A stretch of DNA of 64,000 bases, taken from the NCBI RefSeq assembly GCF_000522985.1, contig NZ_CP007128.1, positions 558,001 through 622,000 on the forward strand. Reading direction: 5' to 3'. This stretch comes from Gemmatirosa kalamazoonensis (GTDB lineage Bacteria; Gemmatimonadota; Gemmatimonadetes; Gemmatimonadales; Gemmatimonadaceae). Shown one piece after another: positions 33,405 through 63,283 of this stretch (position 1 is the first letter of the stretch; each line of letters starts with the position of its first letter). The notes beneath the pieces were generated by a model. The model ran no database searches and was not told the origin of the DNA. It saw only the letters and a list, made by a program, of their open reading frames with translations. Position numbers and translations under genes: made by a program.

Positions 33405-33487
33405 CTCCACGCTCCACGCTCCACGCTCCACGCCCGGCGTGGTCGCGAAGCGGAGCGAGCGTGGAGCGTGGAGCGTGGAGCGTGGGG
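33405..33487. repeat. Inverted repeat of CACGCTC heptamers
   Basis: 29-bp arms (33405-33433 and 33459-33487, one mismatch) hold four CACGCTC heptamers and their complements around a 25-bp loop. The heptamer is the same as at the four-helix-bundle element (39966-40488), but the arms face the other way: CACGCTC first, GAGCGTG second. It separates pntB from the FKBP start. Confidence 0.92.
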
Positions 33488-37326: not shown

Positions 37327-37875
37327 ATGCCCAGCCCCCTCAGCGTGCGCGTCGCGGCGGTCGGCGCGCTCATGGCGCTCGCCACGGCGTGCGGCGACGT
37401 GGCCCCGATGCAGAACGACGACACGTTCGCGCTCGGGACCGCGGCGGCGAAGCAGAAGCCGTGGGTGCCGACCCCGGAAGAGCCGGTGACGGTCACGATG
37501 GACGTGCCGGGCACCGTGGCGTACGGCAAGCCGATGCCGATCCGCATCACGCTGCACAACGGCACCACGCGGCCGATCGCGGTCGGGCTCGGCCAAGTGC
37601 AGGCGTACGACGTGCTGGTCGCGCAGATCGGGATGCGCCCGGACTCGGGCGGGGTGTGGAGCCCGCCGAGGATGCAGCAGATGTCGCTCGAGGCGACGCT
37701 CACCGACCCGCTGCCCGCCGGGCGCGACACGACGTTCCAGGTGACGTGGCCGGGGACGGACGACACGGGCCGCTTCGTGCGACGCGGCCGGTACCGCGTG
37801 CGCGCCCGGGTGATGGCGCAGCTGCTGCGCACGAAGCAGCTGTGGACGCCGTGGGTGCCGATCGAAGTGCGTTAG
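37327..37875 (+). CDS. BsuPI-like lipoprotein
   Basis: The 182-residue protein has a lipoprotein signal (VGALMALATACGD). Its single Ig-like beta-sandwich (MPIRITLHNGTTRPIAVGLG, DTTFQVTWPGTDDTG, GRYRVRARV) resembles the BsuPI-type proteinase-inhibitor domain, although many such domains have no shown inhibitor activity. Its TAG stop overlaps the first base pairs of the octamer palindrome. Confidence 0.7.
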   Translation: MPSPLSVRVAAVGALMALATACGDVAPMQNDDTFALGTAAAKQKPWVPTPEEPVTVTMDVPGTVAYGKPMPIRITLHNGTTRPIAVGLGQVQAYDVLVAQIGMRPDSGGVWSPPRMQQMSLEATLTDPLPAGRDTTFQVTWPGTDDTGRFVRRGRYRVRARVMAQLLRTKQLWTPWVPIEVR

Positions 37876-37962
37876 GGCAGGAGGGCAGGAGGGCACGAAG
37901 CGAGGGCAGGAGACCTTGTGGCTCTCCTGCCCTCGCTTCGTGCCCTCCTGCCCTCCTGCCCT
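37874..37962. repeat. Perfect 40-bp inverted repeat of GGGCAGGA-type units
   Basis: The arms 37874-37913 and 37923-37962 are exact complements and flank a nine-base loop. They hold GGGCAGGA-like octamers interrupted by a GGCACGAAGCGA stretch present in both arms. The unit is the same as at 8573. It lies between convergent genes and its first bases are part of the upstream TAG stop. Confidence 0.95.
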
Positions 37963-37968
37963 CGTCCT

Positions 37969-38802: not shown

Positions 38803-38902
38803 GCGACCGTGCGGCCGCGACCTTGTGACGGCAACCGGTGGACGGCGAACGGTCGCCGGTACTAGGTCGTAGTCATCAGGTCGCAGTGCACCGGTCGCCG
38901 TA
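38803..38902. repeat. Degenerate inverted GGTCGCCG/CGGCGAAC units before moxR
   Basis: Left words of the GACGGCAACC and GACGGCGAAC type (to about 38850) face right words GGTCGCCGGTA and CCGGTCGCCGTA (38851-38902). It resembles the array at 29604 and includes the same ACCTTGTGAC phrase. It occupies most of the 212-bp divergent region between the Crp/Fnr gene and moxR, where both promoters must lie. Confidence 0.5.
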
Positions 38903-38915
38903 TTCCAGCAACGAC

Positions 38916-39962
38916 ATGGCCAACCCCGCACGACTCGACGCCCGCGCCCCGCGCGGTGCGCCCACGCTCGACGACGCCGGACCGCTCGTGGACGCCGTGC
39001 GCGCGCTGCGCGCACAGGTGGCGCGGCGGGTGGTGGGGCAGGACCAGGTGGTGGAGGAATTGCTGCTCGCGATCGTGGCCGGGGGGCACGCGCGGCTGGT
39101 CGGCGTGCCGGGGCTCGCGAAGACGCTGCTCGTGAAGAGCCTCGCGGAGGCGATGCACCTCGACTTCCGGCGGATCCAGTTCACGCCGGACCTCGTGCCG
39201 AGCGACATCACGGGCACGGAGATCCTGGAGGAGGACCACGCGACGGGCGGGCGTGCGTTCCGCTTCGTGCCGGGTCCGATCTTCGGCAACATCGTGCTCG
39301 CCGACGAGATCAACCGCGCGCCGCCGCGCACCCAGGCCGCGCTGCTGGAAGCGATGCAGGAGCACGCGGTCAGCGCGGCCGGCCGCACGATGCGGCTGCC
39401 GGAGCCGTTCTTCGTGCTCGCGACGCAGAACCCGATCGAGCAGGAGGGGACGTATCCCCTGCCCGAGGCGCAGCTCGACCGCTTCCTGTTCGACGTGCGG
39501 GTGAGCTATCCGGCGGCGGACGAGGAGGTGGCGATCCTGCGCGCGACGACGGGCGCGCCGGCGGGGCCGCTGGACGCGGTGCTCGACGCGACGCAGGCGC
39601 TCGCGCTGCAGCGGCTCGCGCGCGAGATCCCGGCGAGCGACGCCGCGCTGCGCTACGCGGCGTCGCTCGTGCGCGCGACGCGCCCCGACGACCCGAACGC
39701 GACGGCGCTGGTGAAGCGCGCGGTGCGGTGGGGCGCGGGACCGCGCGCGGGCCAGGCGCTCGTGTTAGGCGCGAAGGCGCACGCGCTGCTCGCCGGGCGC
39801 GCCGCGGTGGCGCCCGAGGATCTGCGGCGCGTCGCGGCGCCGGTGCTGCGCCACCGCGTGCTGCCGACGTTCGCCGCCGAAGCGGAGGGGATCGATGCGG
39901 ACCGGGTGGTGGCGGACCTCCTGGAACGTGTCGCGGCACCGAGCGCCGGTGTCCGCGTCTGA
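38916..39962 (+). CDS. MoxR-family AAA+ ATPase
   Basis: The 348-residue AAA+ protein has Walker A GVPGLAKT, Walker B IVLADEINRAPPRTQAALLE and the MoxR signature LATQNPIEQEGTYPLPEAQL. MoxR proteins work as chaperones with vWA-domain partners. Here DUF58 and BatA-like genes follow, but a 523-bp element with an antisense gene separates moxR from them. The element's arm begins three bases after the TGA. Confidence 0.94.
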   Translation: MANPARLDARAPRGAPTLDDAGPLVDAVRALRAQVARRVVGQDQVVEELLLAIVAGGHARLVGVPGLAKTLLVKSLAEAMHLDFRRIQFTPDLVPSDITGTEILEEDHATGGRAFRFVPGPIFGNIVLADEINRAPPRTQAALLEAMQEHAVSAAGRTMRLPEPFFVLATQNPIEQEGTYPLPEAQLDRFLFDVRVSYPAADEEVAILRATTGAPAGPLDAVLDATQALALQRLAREIPASDAALRYAASLVRATRPDDPNATALVKRAVRWGAGPRAGQALVLGAKAHALLAGRAAVAPEDLRRVAAPVLRHRVLPTFAAEAEGIDADRVVADLLERVAAPSAGVRV

Positions 39963-39965
39963 GCG

Positions 39966-40488
39966 AGCGTGGAGCGTGGAGCGTGGAGCGTGGAGCGCCT
40001 TTCCCTGCTCAGCCTCCCAGCTTGCGGCGCATCACGCGGAGCATGCGACTGACCTCGTCGCTCAGGGCCAGGGCGTCGGCGACATCCTCCGGATACAGGT
40101 GACCCACCGTGACGGCGGAAATGAGGTGGTTGTCGACCTCCTTCAGCGATGCGTGGGCCGAGGAGAGCTGGGCGAGGAACACCTTCCGGTAGGCGCTGCT
40201 GTGGCCCTCGGCGATGTTCGACGACACCGAGCCAGCGGCGCGACGCAGCTGCGATCCCATCTCGTAGCGCTCCTCCGGGGGGAGCTGCCGGTTCAAACGG
40301 TAGACCTCACGCAGCAGCTCCTGGCTGCGCTGCCAGACGATCAGGTCGCGGAAGTCGCCGGTCGCCATGTGAGGCCTCCATGTAGCGTGTCGGCGAAGTG
40401 TGCGAGGGTGCGTGCCGTCCGCCTAACCATTCCGACGCGCCGACCACCCGGAGAACGCTCCACGCTCCACGCTCCACGCTCCACGCTC
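39966..40488. mobile_element. Four-helix-bundle gene bracketed by 33-bp inverted heptamer repeats
   Basis: Exact 33-bp inverted arms, 39966-39998 (four GAGCGTG heptamers plus GAGCG) and 40456-40488 (its perfect complement), enclose 457 bp. Within lies one gene on the minus strand for a four-helix-bundle protein. The unit sits between moxR and the DUF58 gene, in an operon whose later members all overlap, so it looks inserted. In RNA the arms would form a 33-bp stem with the gene in the loop, the layout of 23S rRNA intervening sequences that encode related proteins. I see no target-site duplication and no transposase. Mobility is inference; the structure is directly seen. Confidence 0.85.
40009..40368 (-). 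CDS. Four-helix-bundle protein (S23/Avd-like)
   Basis: The 119-residue all-alpha protein has the family pattern: FRDLIVWQRSQELLREVYRL, then LPPEERYEMGSQLRRAAGSV, SSNIAEGHSS, a helix KVFLAQLSSAHASLKEVDNH and a final helix. The motif W-Q-x-S, the LRRAAxSVxSNIAEG segment and the length match the four-helix-bundle proteins found inside 23S rRNA intervening sequences and related to Avd of diversity-generating retroelements. Those form basic pentamers that bind nucleic acid. No reverse transcriptase is near. GGAGG lies six bases before the ATG at 40368. It is antisense to the surrounding operon and lies wholly inside the inverted repeats. Confidence 0.9.
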   Translation of the reverse strand: MATGDFRDLIVWQRSQELLREVYRLNRQLPPEERYEMGSQLRRAAGSVSSNIAEGHSSAYRKVFLAQLSSAHASLKEVDNHLISAVTVGHLYPEDVADALALSDEVSRMLRVMRRKLGG

Positions 40489-40511
40489 GACGTCCCCCGC
40501 GGGGGCGCGTG

Positions 40512-41390
40512 ATGCACGACTCGGACACGCGCCTGCTGGACGAGCTGCGCGGCGTGCGGTGGGCCGCACGCAAGCTGGCGGCGGCGACCCTGCCCGGCGC
40601 GCACCGCGCACGGCTGCGCAGCCCCGGCGGGGAGCTGAGCGAGTATCGCGCGTACCGACAGGGCGACGATCCGCGACGGCTCGACTGGCGGCTGCTCGCG
40701 CGCAGCGACCGCGCATTCATCCGTCTGGCCGACGACCACGCGCTGCTGCCGACGGTGCTCGTGGTGGACGCGAGCGCATCGATGGCGTTCCGCGCGAAGT
40801 GGCGCGCCGCACGTGCGCTGTCGTTAGGCCTCGCCGCGGTCGCGCACGCGGCGGGGGATCCCGTGGGCCTCGCGGTCGCGGCGCCGGACGCGCGCGACCG
40901 GTGGCTGCCGGCCCGCGCGCGGCGCGGCGTGGTACACGAGGTCGCACGCGCGCTCGACGCGGTGACGCCGGACGGGGATGCGCCGCTCGCTCCGCTCGTG
41001 ACGCACGCGGCGGCGGTGCGCGGCACGCGGCTCGTGCTCGTGTCCGACTTCCTCGGCGACGAGGCGGCGACGCTGCGCGCGGCGACGACGCACCGCGCGC
41101 AGGGCGGCGAGGTGTACGCGCTGCACGTGCTCGACGCGCAGGAGCTCGATCCGCCGCGCGGCGCGGTGCTCGCCGTGGACCCGGAGCGTCCGGACGTGCG
41201 CCGCCCGCTCGATGCGGTGTCGCGCGCCGCGTATCTCGCCGCGTTCGCGAAGTGGCGCGCGGAGACGGCGCGCGCGTGGCGCGACGCGGGCGCGACGTAC
41301 GTGGCGGTGACGACAGACGAGCCGCCGGCGCGCGCGGTGCGCCGCGTGGTGCGCGGCGCCGTCGAGAGCCACGCGGAGGCTCGGGCGTGA
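40512..41390 (+). CDS. DUF58 domain protein
   Basis: The 292-residue protein shows the DUF58 signature YRQGDDPRRLDWRLLARSDR and a vWA-like MIDAS VVDASASMAF. Such proteins partner MoxR ATPases. The ATG at 40512 is 24 bp after the right arm of the four-helix-bundle element; a GTG one codon earlier is possible. Its stop overlaps the next GTG. Confidence 0.9.
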   Translation: MHDSDTRLLDELRGVRWAARKLAAATLPGAHRARLRSPGGELSEYRAYRQGDDPRRLDWRLLARSDRAFIRLADDHALLPTVLVVDASASMAFRAKWRAARALSLGLAAVAHAAGDPVGLAVAAPDARDRWLPARARRGVVHEVARALDAVTPDGDAPLAPLVTHAAAVRGTRLVLVSDFLGDEAATLRAATTHRAQGGEVYALHVLDAQELDPPRGAVLAVDPERPDVRRPLDAVSRAAYLAAFAKWRAETARAWRDAGATYVAVTTDEPPARAVRRVVRGAVESHAEARA

Positions 41391-42850
41391 GGTTCCTCGC
41401 GCCGGGCTGGATCCTGGTGGGCGTCGCGGCGGCGCTGGCGCTCGTCGCGCTGCACCTGCTCGCGCTCGGCCGACCGGCGCCGCTGCTGCTGCCGACCGCG
41501 CGGTTCGTGCCGATGCGGTCGGCGCGGGCACGACGACTCGCGCGCCGGCCGCGCGATCTGCTGCTGCTCGCGATGCGCGCGGCGGCGGTGCTGACCGGCG
41601 CGCTCGCGCTCGCGCGGCCGACACGCACGCCGGAGCGACGGCCGATCGCGCGCGTGATCGTCGCCGACCGCTCGGGCGCGGTGCGCGACGTGGGCGCGGT
41701 GCGTGACTCGGTGCGCGCGGTCGGGTCGACGGGAGACCTCCTGGTCGCGTTCGACACGGCGGCGCGTGCCGCGATCGCGTTAGGCACCACGCCGGCGGCG
41801 CGGGACAGCGCGATCGATCGTGCGCTGGCACGCGACTCGGCGTCGTCTGCGCCGGCGGGGTCGCTGTCGGCGGCGCTCGCGGCCGCGCGGCGGGCGGCGC
41901 CGAGGCTGCGCGATGGAGCGGACTCGGTGGAGCTCGTGATCGTCGCACCGCTCACGACGCGGGAGGCGGACGCGGCGACGGGTGCGGTGCGCGCGACGTG
42001 GGCCGGGCGCGCGCGCGTCATGCGCGTGGCGGCGGCCGAGCCGCCGGCGGCGGGCGCGGTGCGCGTGACGTGGCGGCGCGGCGGTTCGGACGACGCGCTG
42101 GCCGCGGCGGCGGGCATGCTCGACGGCACGGTCCCTAGTCCCCAGGGGGGCTCCCCCCCCACGCCCAACATCGCACCCGATGCGCGCGAGCGCCGTACCG
42201 ATCCGACGCCGGGCGGATCCGCGGAACGCACGACCGCGCTCGTCGTGCGCGACGGCGCGACCGCCGCCGACTCCGCGTGGGCGCGCGCGAACGCCGGCGC
42301 GCTCGTGGACTGGCCGGCGGACGGCGTGCCTAACGGCTGGCGACCGCGCGCCCGCGTCGACACGGCGGGCGCCGTCGTCGCGGGCACCGCGGCGTTCGTC
42401 GCGCCGATCGCGCGGCGCGCGGCGTGGCCGGGGAGTGACGCGGCCGCGCGCGTGATCGCGCGGTGGGCCGACGGCGAGCCCGCCGCGGTGGAGCGCGCGC
42501 TCGGCGACGGCTGCGTGCGCGGGGTCGCCGTGCCGGTGCCGCAGGTCGGCGACGCGGCACTGCGGCCGCCGTTCCGCGCGCTGCTCGCGGCGCTGACGGC
42601 GCCGTGCGCGCACCGCGCGACCGGTGCACCGCTCGGCGACGCGACGGTCCGCGCCCTCGCCGGAAGCGGCCGCCTGCTCGCGACGGACGCGCTCGGGCGC
42701 GCGCCCACGCCGCCCGATCCGCTCGCACAGTGGCTGCTCGCCGCGGCGATCGCGCTGCTCGTGATCGAGCTGCCGCTGCGGCTCGCGCGGCGGCCCGTCG
42801 AGCCGCCTAACGACATCGCGGCCGACGCATCGACGGAGGCGGCGGCGTGA
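41387..42850 (+). CDS. BatA-like membrane protein
   Basis: The 487-residue protein begins with the BatA-type N-terminus (FLAPGWILVGVAAALALVAL, then LPTARFVP), has a second helix (LLLLAMRAAAVLTGALALAR) and a last helix near the C-terminus (QWLLAAAIALLVIELPL). The middle is Ala/Arg/Asp-rich with a vWA-like region whose MIDAS is degenerate (IVADRSGAV). Start GTG at 41387, overlapping the DUF58 stop. It probably acts with MoxR at the membrane; the exact role is unknown. Confidence 0.8.
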   Translation: MRFLAPGWILVGVAAALALVALHLLALGRPAPLLLPTARFVPMRSARARRLARRPRDLLLLAMRAAAVLTGALALARPTRTPERRPIARVIVADRSGAVRDVGAVRDSVRAVGSTGDLLVAFDTAARAAIALGTTPAARDSAIDRALARDSASSAPAGSLSAALAAARRAAPRLRDGADSVELVIVAPLTTREADAATGAVRATWAGRARVMRVAAAEPPAAGAVRVTWRRGGSDDALAAAAGMLDGTVPSPQGGSPPTPNIAPDARERRTDPTPGGSAERTTALVVRDGATAADSAWARANAGALVDWPADGVPNGWRPRARVDTAGAVVAGTAAFVAPIARRAAWPGSDAAARVIARWADGEPAAVERALGDGCVRGVAVPVPQVGDAALRPPFRALLAALTAPCAHRATGAPLGDATVRALAGSGRLLATDALGRAPTPPDPLAQWLLAAAIALLVIELPLRLARRPVEPPNDIAADASTEAAA

Positions 42851-57203: not shown

Positions 57204-57279
57204 TCTGCGTAATCTGCGTAATCTGCGGACGAACGCTCTTCCAACAGCAGTAGTCCGCAGATTACGCAGATTACGCAGA
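57204..57279. repeat. Perfect inverted repeat of TCTGCGTAA nonamers between divergent genes
   Basis: Exact 26-bp arms (57204-57229 and 57254-57279) hold TCTGCGTAA, TCTGCGTAA, TCTGCGGA and the complement around a 24-bp loop. The gap separates two divergent genes, so it cannot be a terminator; it must overlap their promoters. The AT content of the unit is higher than its surroundings. Confidence 0.94.
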
Positions 57280-57299
57280 TCCTTTCTATCACTCGGCGG

Positions 57300-61755: not shown

Positions 61756-61924
61756 GACGTTGTGCTCGGCGTTTTTGACCGCAGAGGACGCAGAGGGGCG
61801 CAGAGGACTGCCTCTTCCTTCTTGTGTTGAACCACAGAGGACACAGAGGACACAGAGGAGAACCACTCGTGTTGGTTTGCTCTGTGTCCTCTGTGGGCTT
61901 GACCCGCCTTTGTGGACACCCGGG

Positions 61925-62821
61925 TTATGCCGCGCTGGGCGGCACGAGCTGCGCTTCGTACTGCGCGGGACTGAGGTAACCGAGCGTCGAGTGCCGCCGC
62001 TGCCGGTTGTACCACGTTTCGATGTAGCGGAAGATCGCGCGCCGCGCCTCGTCGCGCGTGCGCCAGTCGCTGCGCGTGATCAGCTCCAGTTCGAGCGTCG
62101 CGAAGAAGCTTTCGGCCACCGCGTTGTCCCAGCAGTCCCCCTTCCGGCTCATACTCGCGACGAGCCTGTGCTGGGTGAGCAGCGCTTGATACTCGGCACT
62201 GGCGTACTGGACGCCGCGATCGGAGTGATGGACGAGGCCCGGCGCCGGCCGCCGCGCCCCGAGCGCCATGCGCAGCGCCGCGAGGGCGAGATCCACCTCG
62301 AGCGTGTCGCGCATCGCCCAACCGATGACGCGCCGCGACGCGAGATCGAGCACCGTGGCCAGATAGAGCCAGCCCGCGCGCGTCGGGACGTATGTGACGT
62401 CACTCACCCACACGCGGTCGAGGGCGCGCGGGGCGTCGCCGTCGTGCACGGCGAACTGCCGCGCGAGGACGTTCGGCGCGATCGGCCGCGCGTGCGCCGA
62501 GTGCGTCGTGCGCACGCCGCCGCGCCGGCGTACCCGCCCTACCAGGCCGTCGGCGCGCATGAGCCGCGCGACGCGCTTCTTGCCCACGCGCACCGCCTGC
62601 GCGCGGAGCTCCTGATGCACGCGCGGCGCGCCGTACGTGCCACGGCTCTCGCGATGCGCGACGCGCACGCGCGCCAGCAGCACCTCGTCGGCGAGCGCGT
62701 GGGCCGTCGGGCTCGCCCCGCGGCGCCAGGCATAGTAGCCCGACGGCGCCACGGCCAACACGCGGCACATGAGGCGCACCGGATACGAGTCGCGGTGCCG
62801 CGTGATGCAGGCGTACTTCAC
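61925..62821 (-). CDS. IS3-family transposase OrfB (DDE integrase core)
   Basis: The product is about 298 residues from the GTG at 62821, which overlaps the orfA stop. It has an HTH_21-like segment (YYAWRRGASPTAHALADEVL) and the DDE core: Asp in DRVWVSDVTYVP, Asp in VHHSDRGVQYAS and Glu in NAVAESFFATLELE. A run of seven A residues on the coding strand within orfA (62851-62857) probably allows a -1 shift to make OrfAB, the active transposase. The genes look intact. Confidence 0.93.
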   Translation of the reverse strand: MKYACITRHRDSYPVRLMCRVLAVAPSGYYAWRRGASPTAHALADEVLLARVRVAHRESRGTYGAPRVHQELRAQAVRVGKKRVARLMRADGLVGRVRRRGGVRTTHSAHARPIAPNVLARQFAVHDGDAPRALDRVWVSDVTYVPTRAGWLYLATVLDLASRRVIGWAMRDTLEVDLALAALRMALGARRPAPGLVHHSDRGVQYASAEYQALLTQHRLVASMSRKGDCWDNAVAESFFATLELELITRSDWRTRDEARRAIFRYIETWYNRQRRHSTLGYLSPAQYEAQLVPPSAA

Positions 62822-63135
62822 CGCGACTCCCTCGCGAAGAACGCCGCGGCTTTTTTTGCGAACTCGGCCTCCTGTTTGAGCGTCGCGACTTCGCGTCGGA
62901 GCCGCCGCACCTCTTGCTCGAGCGTCTCGCCGCTCGTCGAGACCGCGCTGACGGGTGTGCTCGTAGCGCGGTCCGCCTGCTGCGCCCATTCGCGCAGCTG
63001 GCCCGGACGGACGCCCAGTTCGCAGGCGACGCCGGTCACCGAGCCGCCACGCGCGCGTCGCGTCTCCAGCAGGCGGAGCGCCTCATCCTTGAACTCCGCC
63101 GTGAAGACCCGGCGCACGTGCTGTGACTTCGTCAT
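62818..63135 (-). CDS. IS3-family OrfA (HTH, leucine zipper)
   Basis: The 105-residue protein has a helix-turn-helix (FTAEFKDEALRLLETRRARG, VACELGVRPGQLREWAQQA) and a coiled coil (LEQEVRRLRREVATLKQEAE) that dimerises in this family. It binds the IS ends. The A7-G slippery site in its 3' part fuses it to OrfB. ATG at 63135. Confidence 0.93.
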   Translation of the reverse strand: MTKSQHVRRVFTAEFKDEALRLLETRRARGGSVTGVACELGVRPGQLREWAQQADRATSTPVSAVSTSGETLEQEVRRLRREVATLKQEAEFAKKAAAFFARESR

Positions 63136-63283
63136 GGACTCCCTCCTCCCTCAACCTAGACCGATGGGTGAGGTGTCCACAAAACCGGGTCAACTCCACT
63201 GTGTCCTCTGTGTCCTCTGTGTCCTCTGTGGTAAGAACAAAGAGCGAGAAGGTCTCCTCTGCGTCCTCTGCGTCCTCTGCGGT

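Follow-up and report, generated by a model that had tools for sequence, protein, structure and literature searches.

The window analysed here is a stretch of 64,000 nucleotides of Gemmatirosa kalamazoonensis DNA, in which a gene for a four-helix-bundle protein of the S23/IVP type lies between the genes for a MoxR AAA ATPase and a DUF58 protein (Table 1). This gene is the sole open reading frame (ORF) between two inverted arms of 34 nt each, which are 100% complementary and spaced by 458 nt, and the outer end of the left arm lies 2 nt past the moxR stop codon. The original prediction for this locus, made from the sequence alone, had described exact inverted arms of 33 bp enclosing one complete gene with its own ribosome site; the arms prove to be one base longer, and the gene and its ribosome-binding site are as described. 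The 4-bp overlaps that it had seen elsewhere in the operon are likewise present in the genes downstream of the element (41387-41390 and 42847-42850), so that moxR-DUF58 is the only junction that has been opened. The flanking inverted-repeat score of the element is 34, and because sham positions in comparable loci reach a score of at least 20 in 0/975 cases, the arms are not a product of chance. No recognisable transposase lies between them, S23 being the only gene present, which sets the element apart from an insertion sequence.

Table 1. The caged S23 element, its neighbours, and gene-less hairpins in the window
Feature	Position	Strand	Basis or remark
5' (left) arm, CGAGCGTGGAGCGTGGAGCGTGGAGCGTGGAGCG	39964-39997	+	four GAGCGTG heptads plus GAGCG; G-rich strand
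3' (right) arm	40456-40489	+	exact complement of left arm, 34/34
S23/IVP four-helix-bundle gene, 119 aa, ATG start	40009-40368	-	PF05635, TIGR02436, AlphaFold2 model
Ribosome-binding site GGAGG, 6 nt before S23 ATG	40375-40379	-	sequence
Leader, 3' arm to S23 gene	40380-40455	-	sequence
moxR AAA ATPase gene, left neighbour	38838-39962	+	longest ORF; ATG at 38916 also possible
DUF58 gene, ATG start, right neighbour	40512-41390	+	ORF
Gene-less hairpin, unit GAGCGTG (as in the window cage)	33405-33485		C-rich arm first
Gene-less hairpin, sister unit GAGCGTA	22324-22413		
Gene-less hairpin, unit AGGGCAGG	37874-37963		cage unit of S23 gene L001 in the host genome

In a profile search, the protein matched PF05635 with 103.7 bits against a cut-off of 33.8 (E = 7.4e-30), and TIGR02436 ("four helix bundle protein") with 91.8 bits against a cut-off of 24 (E = 3e-26). 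Its AlphaFold2 model is a four-helix bundle with a pLDDT of 97. The top PDB match to this model is XCC0516 of Xanthomonas (Z = 20.5), with BT_0352 also closest, and the next structural neighbours are Avd in the ribonucleoprotein of a diversity-generating retroelement (Z about 15, rmsd 1.6), below which rank unrelated bundles with Z of 13 or less. The Avd profile gave the protein 20.7 bits, under its cut-off of 80. With profile scores above cut-off and the S23 fold, it is a member of the S23/IVP family. This family (S23, four helix bundle protein, PF05635) is among the commonest "hypothetical" families of bacteria. To our knowledge, no nuclease has the S23 fold, and we know of no catalytic residues in S23 proteins. 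A search of phage records for S23 gave zero matches.

To score caging, we took the highest-scoring inverted repeat that pairs the two 300-bp flanks of a gene, with thresholds of 16 and 20, and used sham positions in the same loci and ParE genes of the same genomes as controls. The host genome (G000, 7.48 Mb) has nine PF05635 genes, eight of which are flanked by inverted repeats, the arms being particular to each gene (repeats of GAGCGTG, TCGGGAC, AGGGCAGG, and TGCGTGGC, as well as longer 14/15-mers). S23 genes are present in 48 of 59 relatives of this genome. Across the Gemmatimonadota, 83 of 96 S23 loci score at least 16 and 71 score at least 20, whereas the sham positions do so in 5/975 and 0/975 cases, respectively, and only 1 of 29 ParE genes reaches 16. 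Flanking repeats are thus far commoner at S23 genes than at control loci, the comparison on which the original prediction had been staked. The same arrangement extends to other groups: a scan of GTDB genomes yielded 80 S23 loci from many phyla, and scores of at least 16 were found for 45 of the 75 usable ones (sham, 6/1235), for 22 of 29 S23 loci in viral contigs, and for 41 of 50 in Xanthomonadaceae. Loci below threshold number 13 of 96 in Gemmatimonadota and 30 of 75 from other phyla.

The arms usually consist of tandem short units, and the unit changes between elements. The G-rich arm is the 5' arm in 142 of 150 caged loci, and a loose profile, G-G-N-(G/T)-T-(C/A)-(G/A), is common to the 66 arms in which a heptad is clear. 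In the Xanthomonas family, the cages of S23 genes include GGGATTC/GGGAATC units (Xcc lay outside the sample), and in Nostoc, too, S23 genes are caged by heptads. It is also worth pointing out that the uncaged S23 gene of the host genome (L008) is syntenic with L116 in the nearest relative (G015), with flanks 77-89% identical, and that gene-less hairpins lie on both sides of it in G000; the L008/L116 gene has perhaps been domesticated. Some caged or heptad-flanked S23 genes lie between CRISPR genes, at cas6-cas4 (Anabaena sp. 90 and Pseudanabaena galeata) and at cas10/cmr2-cmr3 (PCC 7003) (L322, L324, and L475), where they may affect operon expression.

Repeat units of the cages also occur without a gene. 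The 19-mer GAGCGTGGAGCGTGGAGCG is present in 196 copies in G000, many of them in gene-less hairpins, versus 0 for the reversed control. In 400 kb sampled from the chromosome, there are 21 exact gene-less hairpins, which belong to few unit families; about 18 have units of S23 cages found in G000, the exceptions being families of 9/10-mers. The cage units GAGCGTG, TCGGGAC, AGGGCAGG, TGCGTGGC, ACGGCGGGACGAT, and a GAACCGC-type arm are all met again in G000 as gene-less hairpins or arrays. For the 9-/10-mer families GAGGACACG, CGCAGAGGA, CCGCAGAGGG, and TCTGCGTAA (L129-L148; window 57204-57280), there is no matching S23 cage in G000, and candidate readings are relics or a different partner. The loop of one 9-mer hairpin (CACAGAGGA) holds an IS3-type element with two transposase ORFs and TGTGGACACC ends (window 61833-63281). 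Another short sequence, GTTAGGC, is strongly enriched in G000 and often lies inside coding regions: in 464 kb with only 584 TTA on both strands, 349 of 350 TTAGGC are GTTAGGC, for which the zero-order expectation is about 40. It is found genome-wide (C2, 1.4-1.8 Mb), in the window at 39765, 40823, and 41780, and is a candidate Chi, uptake, or architecture motif.

Ten gene-less inverted repeats were sampled in other S23-positive genomes. Four of them match the arms of a single S23 element from the genome in which they lie, with scores of 31-42 over 32-42 nt or more, and the best score of these four to S23 elements of any other genome is 20; the other 6 have no match among the S23 elements compared. 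The word of a cage also predicts the genome-wide repeat in other phyla. GGGAGTC has 106 copies in a Phormidium genome with a GGGAGTC-caged S23 gene and 0-7 in nine others, and AGGATTG has 55, 43, and 20 copies in three genomes with that cage type and 0 in seven others. Arrays of 7/8-nt units number 43 in 400 kb of G000, 6 in 400 kb from nine S23-positive relatives, and 0 in 398 kb from seven S23-free relatives, the last a small and phylogenetically non-independent sample. Because the dominant word, GAGCGTG in G000 and GAGCGTC in its sister genome G015, is absent from 7 of 8 other relatives (with two matches in G005), copies of the word within a lineage change in concert. A hairpin family need not have a partner to persist, as judged from the unmatched 9-mer families (such as GAGGACACG) of G000 and from G015, which keeps GAGCGTC hairpins with neither of its two S23 genes so caged. 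Being short and non-coding, and having ends in common with an autonomous element in their genome, the gene-less hairpins have the properties of MITEs.

The original prediction had looked to relatives for empty moxR-DUF58 sites, and these exist: in ten genera, moxR and DUF58 are separated by a short, empty junction. In G015, a gene-less GAGCGTC hairpin sits exactly at this junction; in G002, a different gene-less hairpin is found there, and in G005, an AGGCATC array on one side only, AGGCATC being the unit in one of that genome's S23 cages (L076). Comparable sites were found on cyanobacterial plasmids. The traM junction is filled in Nostoc C052, empty in C057 (94% alike), and occupied by a gene-less hairpin in ATCC 53789; PCC 7003 has a filled cmr2-cmr3 junction, and PCC 7002 (91%) has an empty one; and nrdB-nrdA is filled in one and empty in the other of a pair 85% alike. 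A plasmid of Anabaena sp. 90 carries a caged S23 gene between cas6 and cas4, where a 99% identical plasmid has a different repeat. On a Dolichospermum plasmid (L323), a different cyanobacterial repeat, GTAGGTTGGGTTGA...AACCCAACCTAC, lies exactly at the site of the Anabaena sp. 90 element. Insertion is directly past the stop codon at moxR and near the stop codon at cas6, traM, and cmr2. No target-site duplication was evident at the filled and empty plasmid sites 85-94% alike, no target motif was found, and movement itself was never directly observed.

Arms and gene are copied as a unit. In genome G033, two copies of an element are 90% identical, are bounded by the outer arm edges, and have unrelated flanks; dN/dS between them is 0.07, and thus the S23 protein stays under selection. 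Paralogous S23 clades within single genomes occur in G018 and G004. Within a single element at an orthologous site, one arm is 87-97% complementary to the other, whereas arms of different species share 6-94%, mostly below 65%, which indicates that the two arms change together. At the ychF-hppA junction, S23 genes occur in six genera (L058, L062, L074, L080, L091, and L112), five of them with clear, mutually different arms, and the genes belong partly to one clade and partly to different clades, a pattern of vertical descent plus re-occupation. An in-place inversion was considered for the site shared by L048, L054, and L056 and was not retained: the tree does not place L048 beside the other two, and an independent insertion in reverse orientation would account for the site equally well.

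Taken together, since cages surround most sampled S23 genes and gene-less copies are scattered in the same genomes, caged S23 appears to be a form of mobile DNA that has gone unnoticed and that has no recognisable transposase. We consider it probable that the window feature is a widespread mobile element, consisting of an autonomous S23 hairpin and MITE-like gene-less partners, on which S23 would act in trans and host enzymes would carry out the joining. The compact element with hairpin ends proposed originally is upheld by the caging statistics, the arm-to-arm copies in G033, and the empty and gene-less sites; that proposal correctly described one caged gene and missed the gene-less partner hairpins, the rule of one unit per element, and the spread over many phyla.

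The element consists of a G-rich 5' arm of ~7-nt repeats, a leader, the S23 gene, and a complementary 3' arm. Its arms are the element ends and would fold into a DNA hairpin, and the S23 protein, with its Avd/S23 fold, would be the element's own factor. S23 oligomers would most likely bind folded arms belonging to their own unit family, after which the replication and repair enzymes of the host might copy or insert the hairpin, with the necessary cutting and joining, at intergenic junctions, often directly past a stop codon. If S23 also acts in trans on gene-less hairpins of the same unit, these could spread as non-autonomous (MITE/REP-like) partners. A broader proposition is possible and is offered tentatively: that this is a new class of mobile DNA in many phyla, in which heptad hairpins are spread by an Avd-like bundle that works with no nuclease, HUH enzyme, or reverse transcriptase, with words renewed in concert in each lineage and orphan heptamer repeats as the non-autonomous forms.

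Alternatively, heptad hairpins might spread by themselves through replication slippage and template switching, S23 genes having merely settled in their loops. Hairpins vastly outnumber S23 genes in G000, those of G015 persist with no matching S23 cage, and the 9-mer hairpin with an IS3-type element (61.9-63.2 kb) in its loop indicates that loops can be invaded. However, caging is specific to S23 genes as compared with ParE (1/29) and is found in many phyla, S23-free genomes lack the arrays, and the G033 arms and gene were copied together, with the copies under purifying selection. We therefore regard self-spreading as unlikely.

We would give the same low weight to mobilisation in trans by an unrelated transposase or reverse transcriptase, with S23 as an accessory or cargo. 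Such an enzyme would suit a protein without known catalytic residues, and the relative Avd does work with a reverse transcriptase, Avd-RT-RNA complexes being the next structural neighbours of S23. On the other hand, a profile search of G000 found zero RVT_1 genes and zero Y1_Tnp/RAYT genes, and the S23-rich genomes G018, G004, G006, and G009 have neither of these two classes. The absence of a reverse transcriptase and of a Y1/RAYT transposase in the host, in line with what had been predicted, means that group II/DGR-type reverse transcription or RAYT action is unneeded in G000, and both were rejected as mobilisers there; an enzyme of another class may still be at work.

Arm mismatches on the gene-sense strand have no excess of G-U over A-C (333 versus 301, p = 0.22; 68 versus 70 per locus), which points to maintenance of the arms at the DNA level, as hairpin DNA or by arm-to-arm conversion, though weak selection could escape this wobble test. 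Retention of the arms for RNase III removal from operon transcripts, with S23 protecting or using the excised RNA, is slightly less credible still: the Coxiella 23S rRNA intervening sequence (IVS) ends in inverted repeats of 28 bp and is excised by RNase III (PMC4990558), and elements do lie inside operons (moxR-DUF58, cas6-cas4, and cmr2-cmr3), but the wobble test lends no support to the RNA-level stem implied by the original prediction, and S23 genes occur on either strand relative to their neighbours. Transcription terminators or insulators were set aside as the main meaning of the arms, the G-rich heptads having no T tracts and most being gene-less.

The mobile hairpin proposed here would provide a candidate function and system for the very common PF05635 family and suggests an origin for the orphan heptamer repeats of Xanthomonas and Nostoc. 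Mobility of IVS-type S23 inserts, an idea of Ralph and McClelland (1993) as cited in PMC4990558, becomes directly testable with a unit of ~500 bp. Should S23 alone move the hairpins, this would be a way for DNA to move with no recognised transposase.

Among known systems, we file the window element as one of IVS/S23 type that lies outside rRNA and has hairpin partners dispersed in the genome. It shares with the 23S rRNA IVS the S23/IVP protein family, a compact insert, and complementary ends. Unlike the IVS, it lies outside rRNA, between moxR and DUF58, and caged elements have arms that are usually tandem short units differing by element, dispersed gene-less partners, and stem changes with no RNA signature. 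REP/BIME sequences with their RAYT (Y1 HUH) proteins work in a similar way, in that a gene is flanked by inverted repeats and matching gene-less repeats are dispersed genome-wide, but the caged-element protein is a four-helix bundle rather than an HUH enzyme, with zero Y1_Tnp in G000, and its arms are tandem words, whereas a REP is a palindrome with a tag. Avd of diversity-generating retroelements resembles S23 in fold (see above) and differs in that the window protein scores far under the Avd cut-off and that G000 has no RVT_1.

Published heptamer repeats also bear comparison. The TAACTGA heptamers of Beggiatoaceae are direct repeats between genes, with a proposed regulatory role (MacGregor 2015, PMC4679880); they too are intergenic heptamer arrays, AGTTATC fits the unit class of S23 arms, and they may belong to the caged-S23 repeats. 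Rehm et al. (2015) described G-rich GGGNATC-type heptads of Xanthomonas and Nostoc, intergenic and often in inverted pairs, which in Xanthomonas average 28 nt from the preceding ORF; they found no link to mobile elements and did not mention S23 (PMC4692102). Our search covered open-access papers, but neither subscription papers nor preprints, and found none that connects S23 genes and heptad repeats; the link of these orphan repeats to S23 is new relative to that literature. The repeats described here are likewise intergenic G-rich arrays, often inverted pairs and close past the preceding ORF, and differ from those of Rehm et al. as described in that, in Xanthomonadaceae and Nostoc, they surround S23 genes. 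The repeats of Rehm et al. look like gene-less forms of the caged S23 element.
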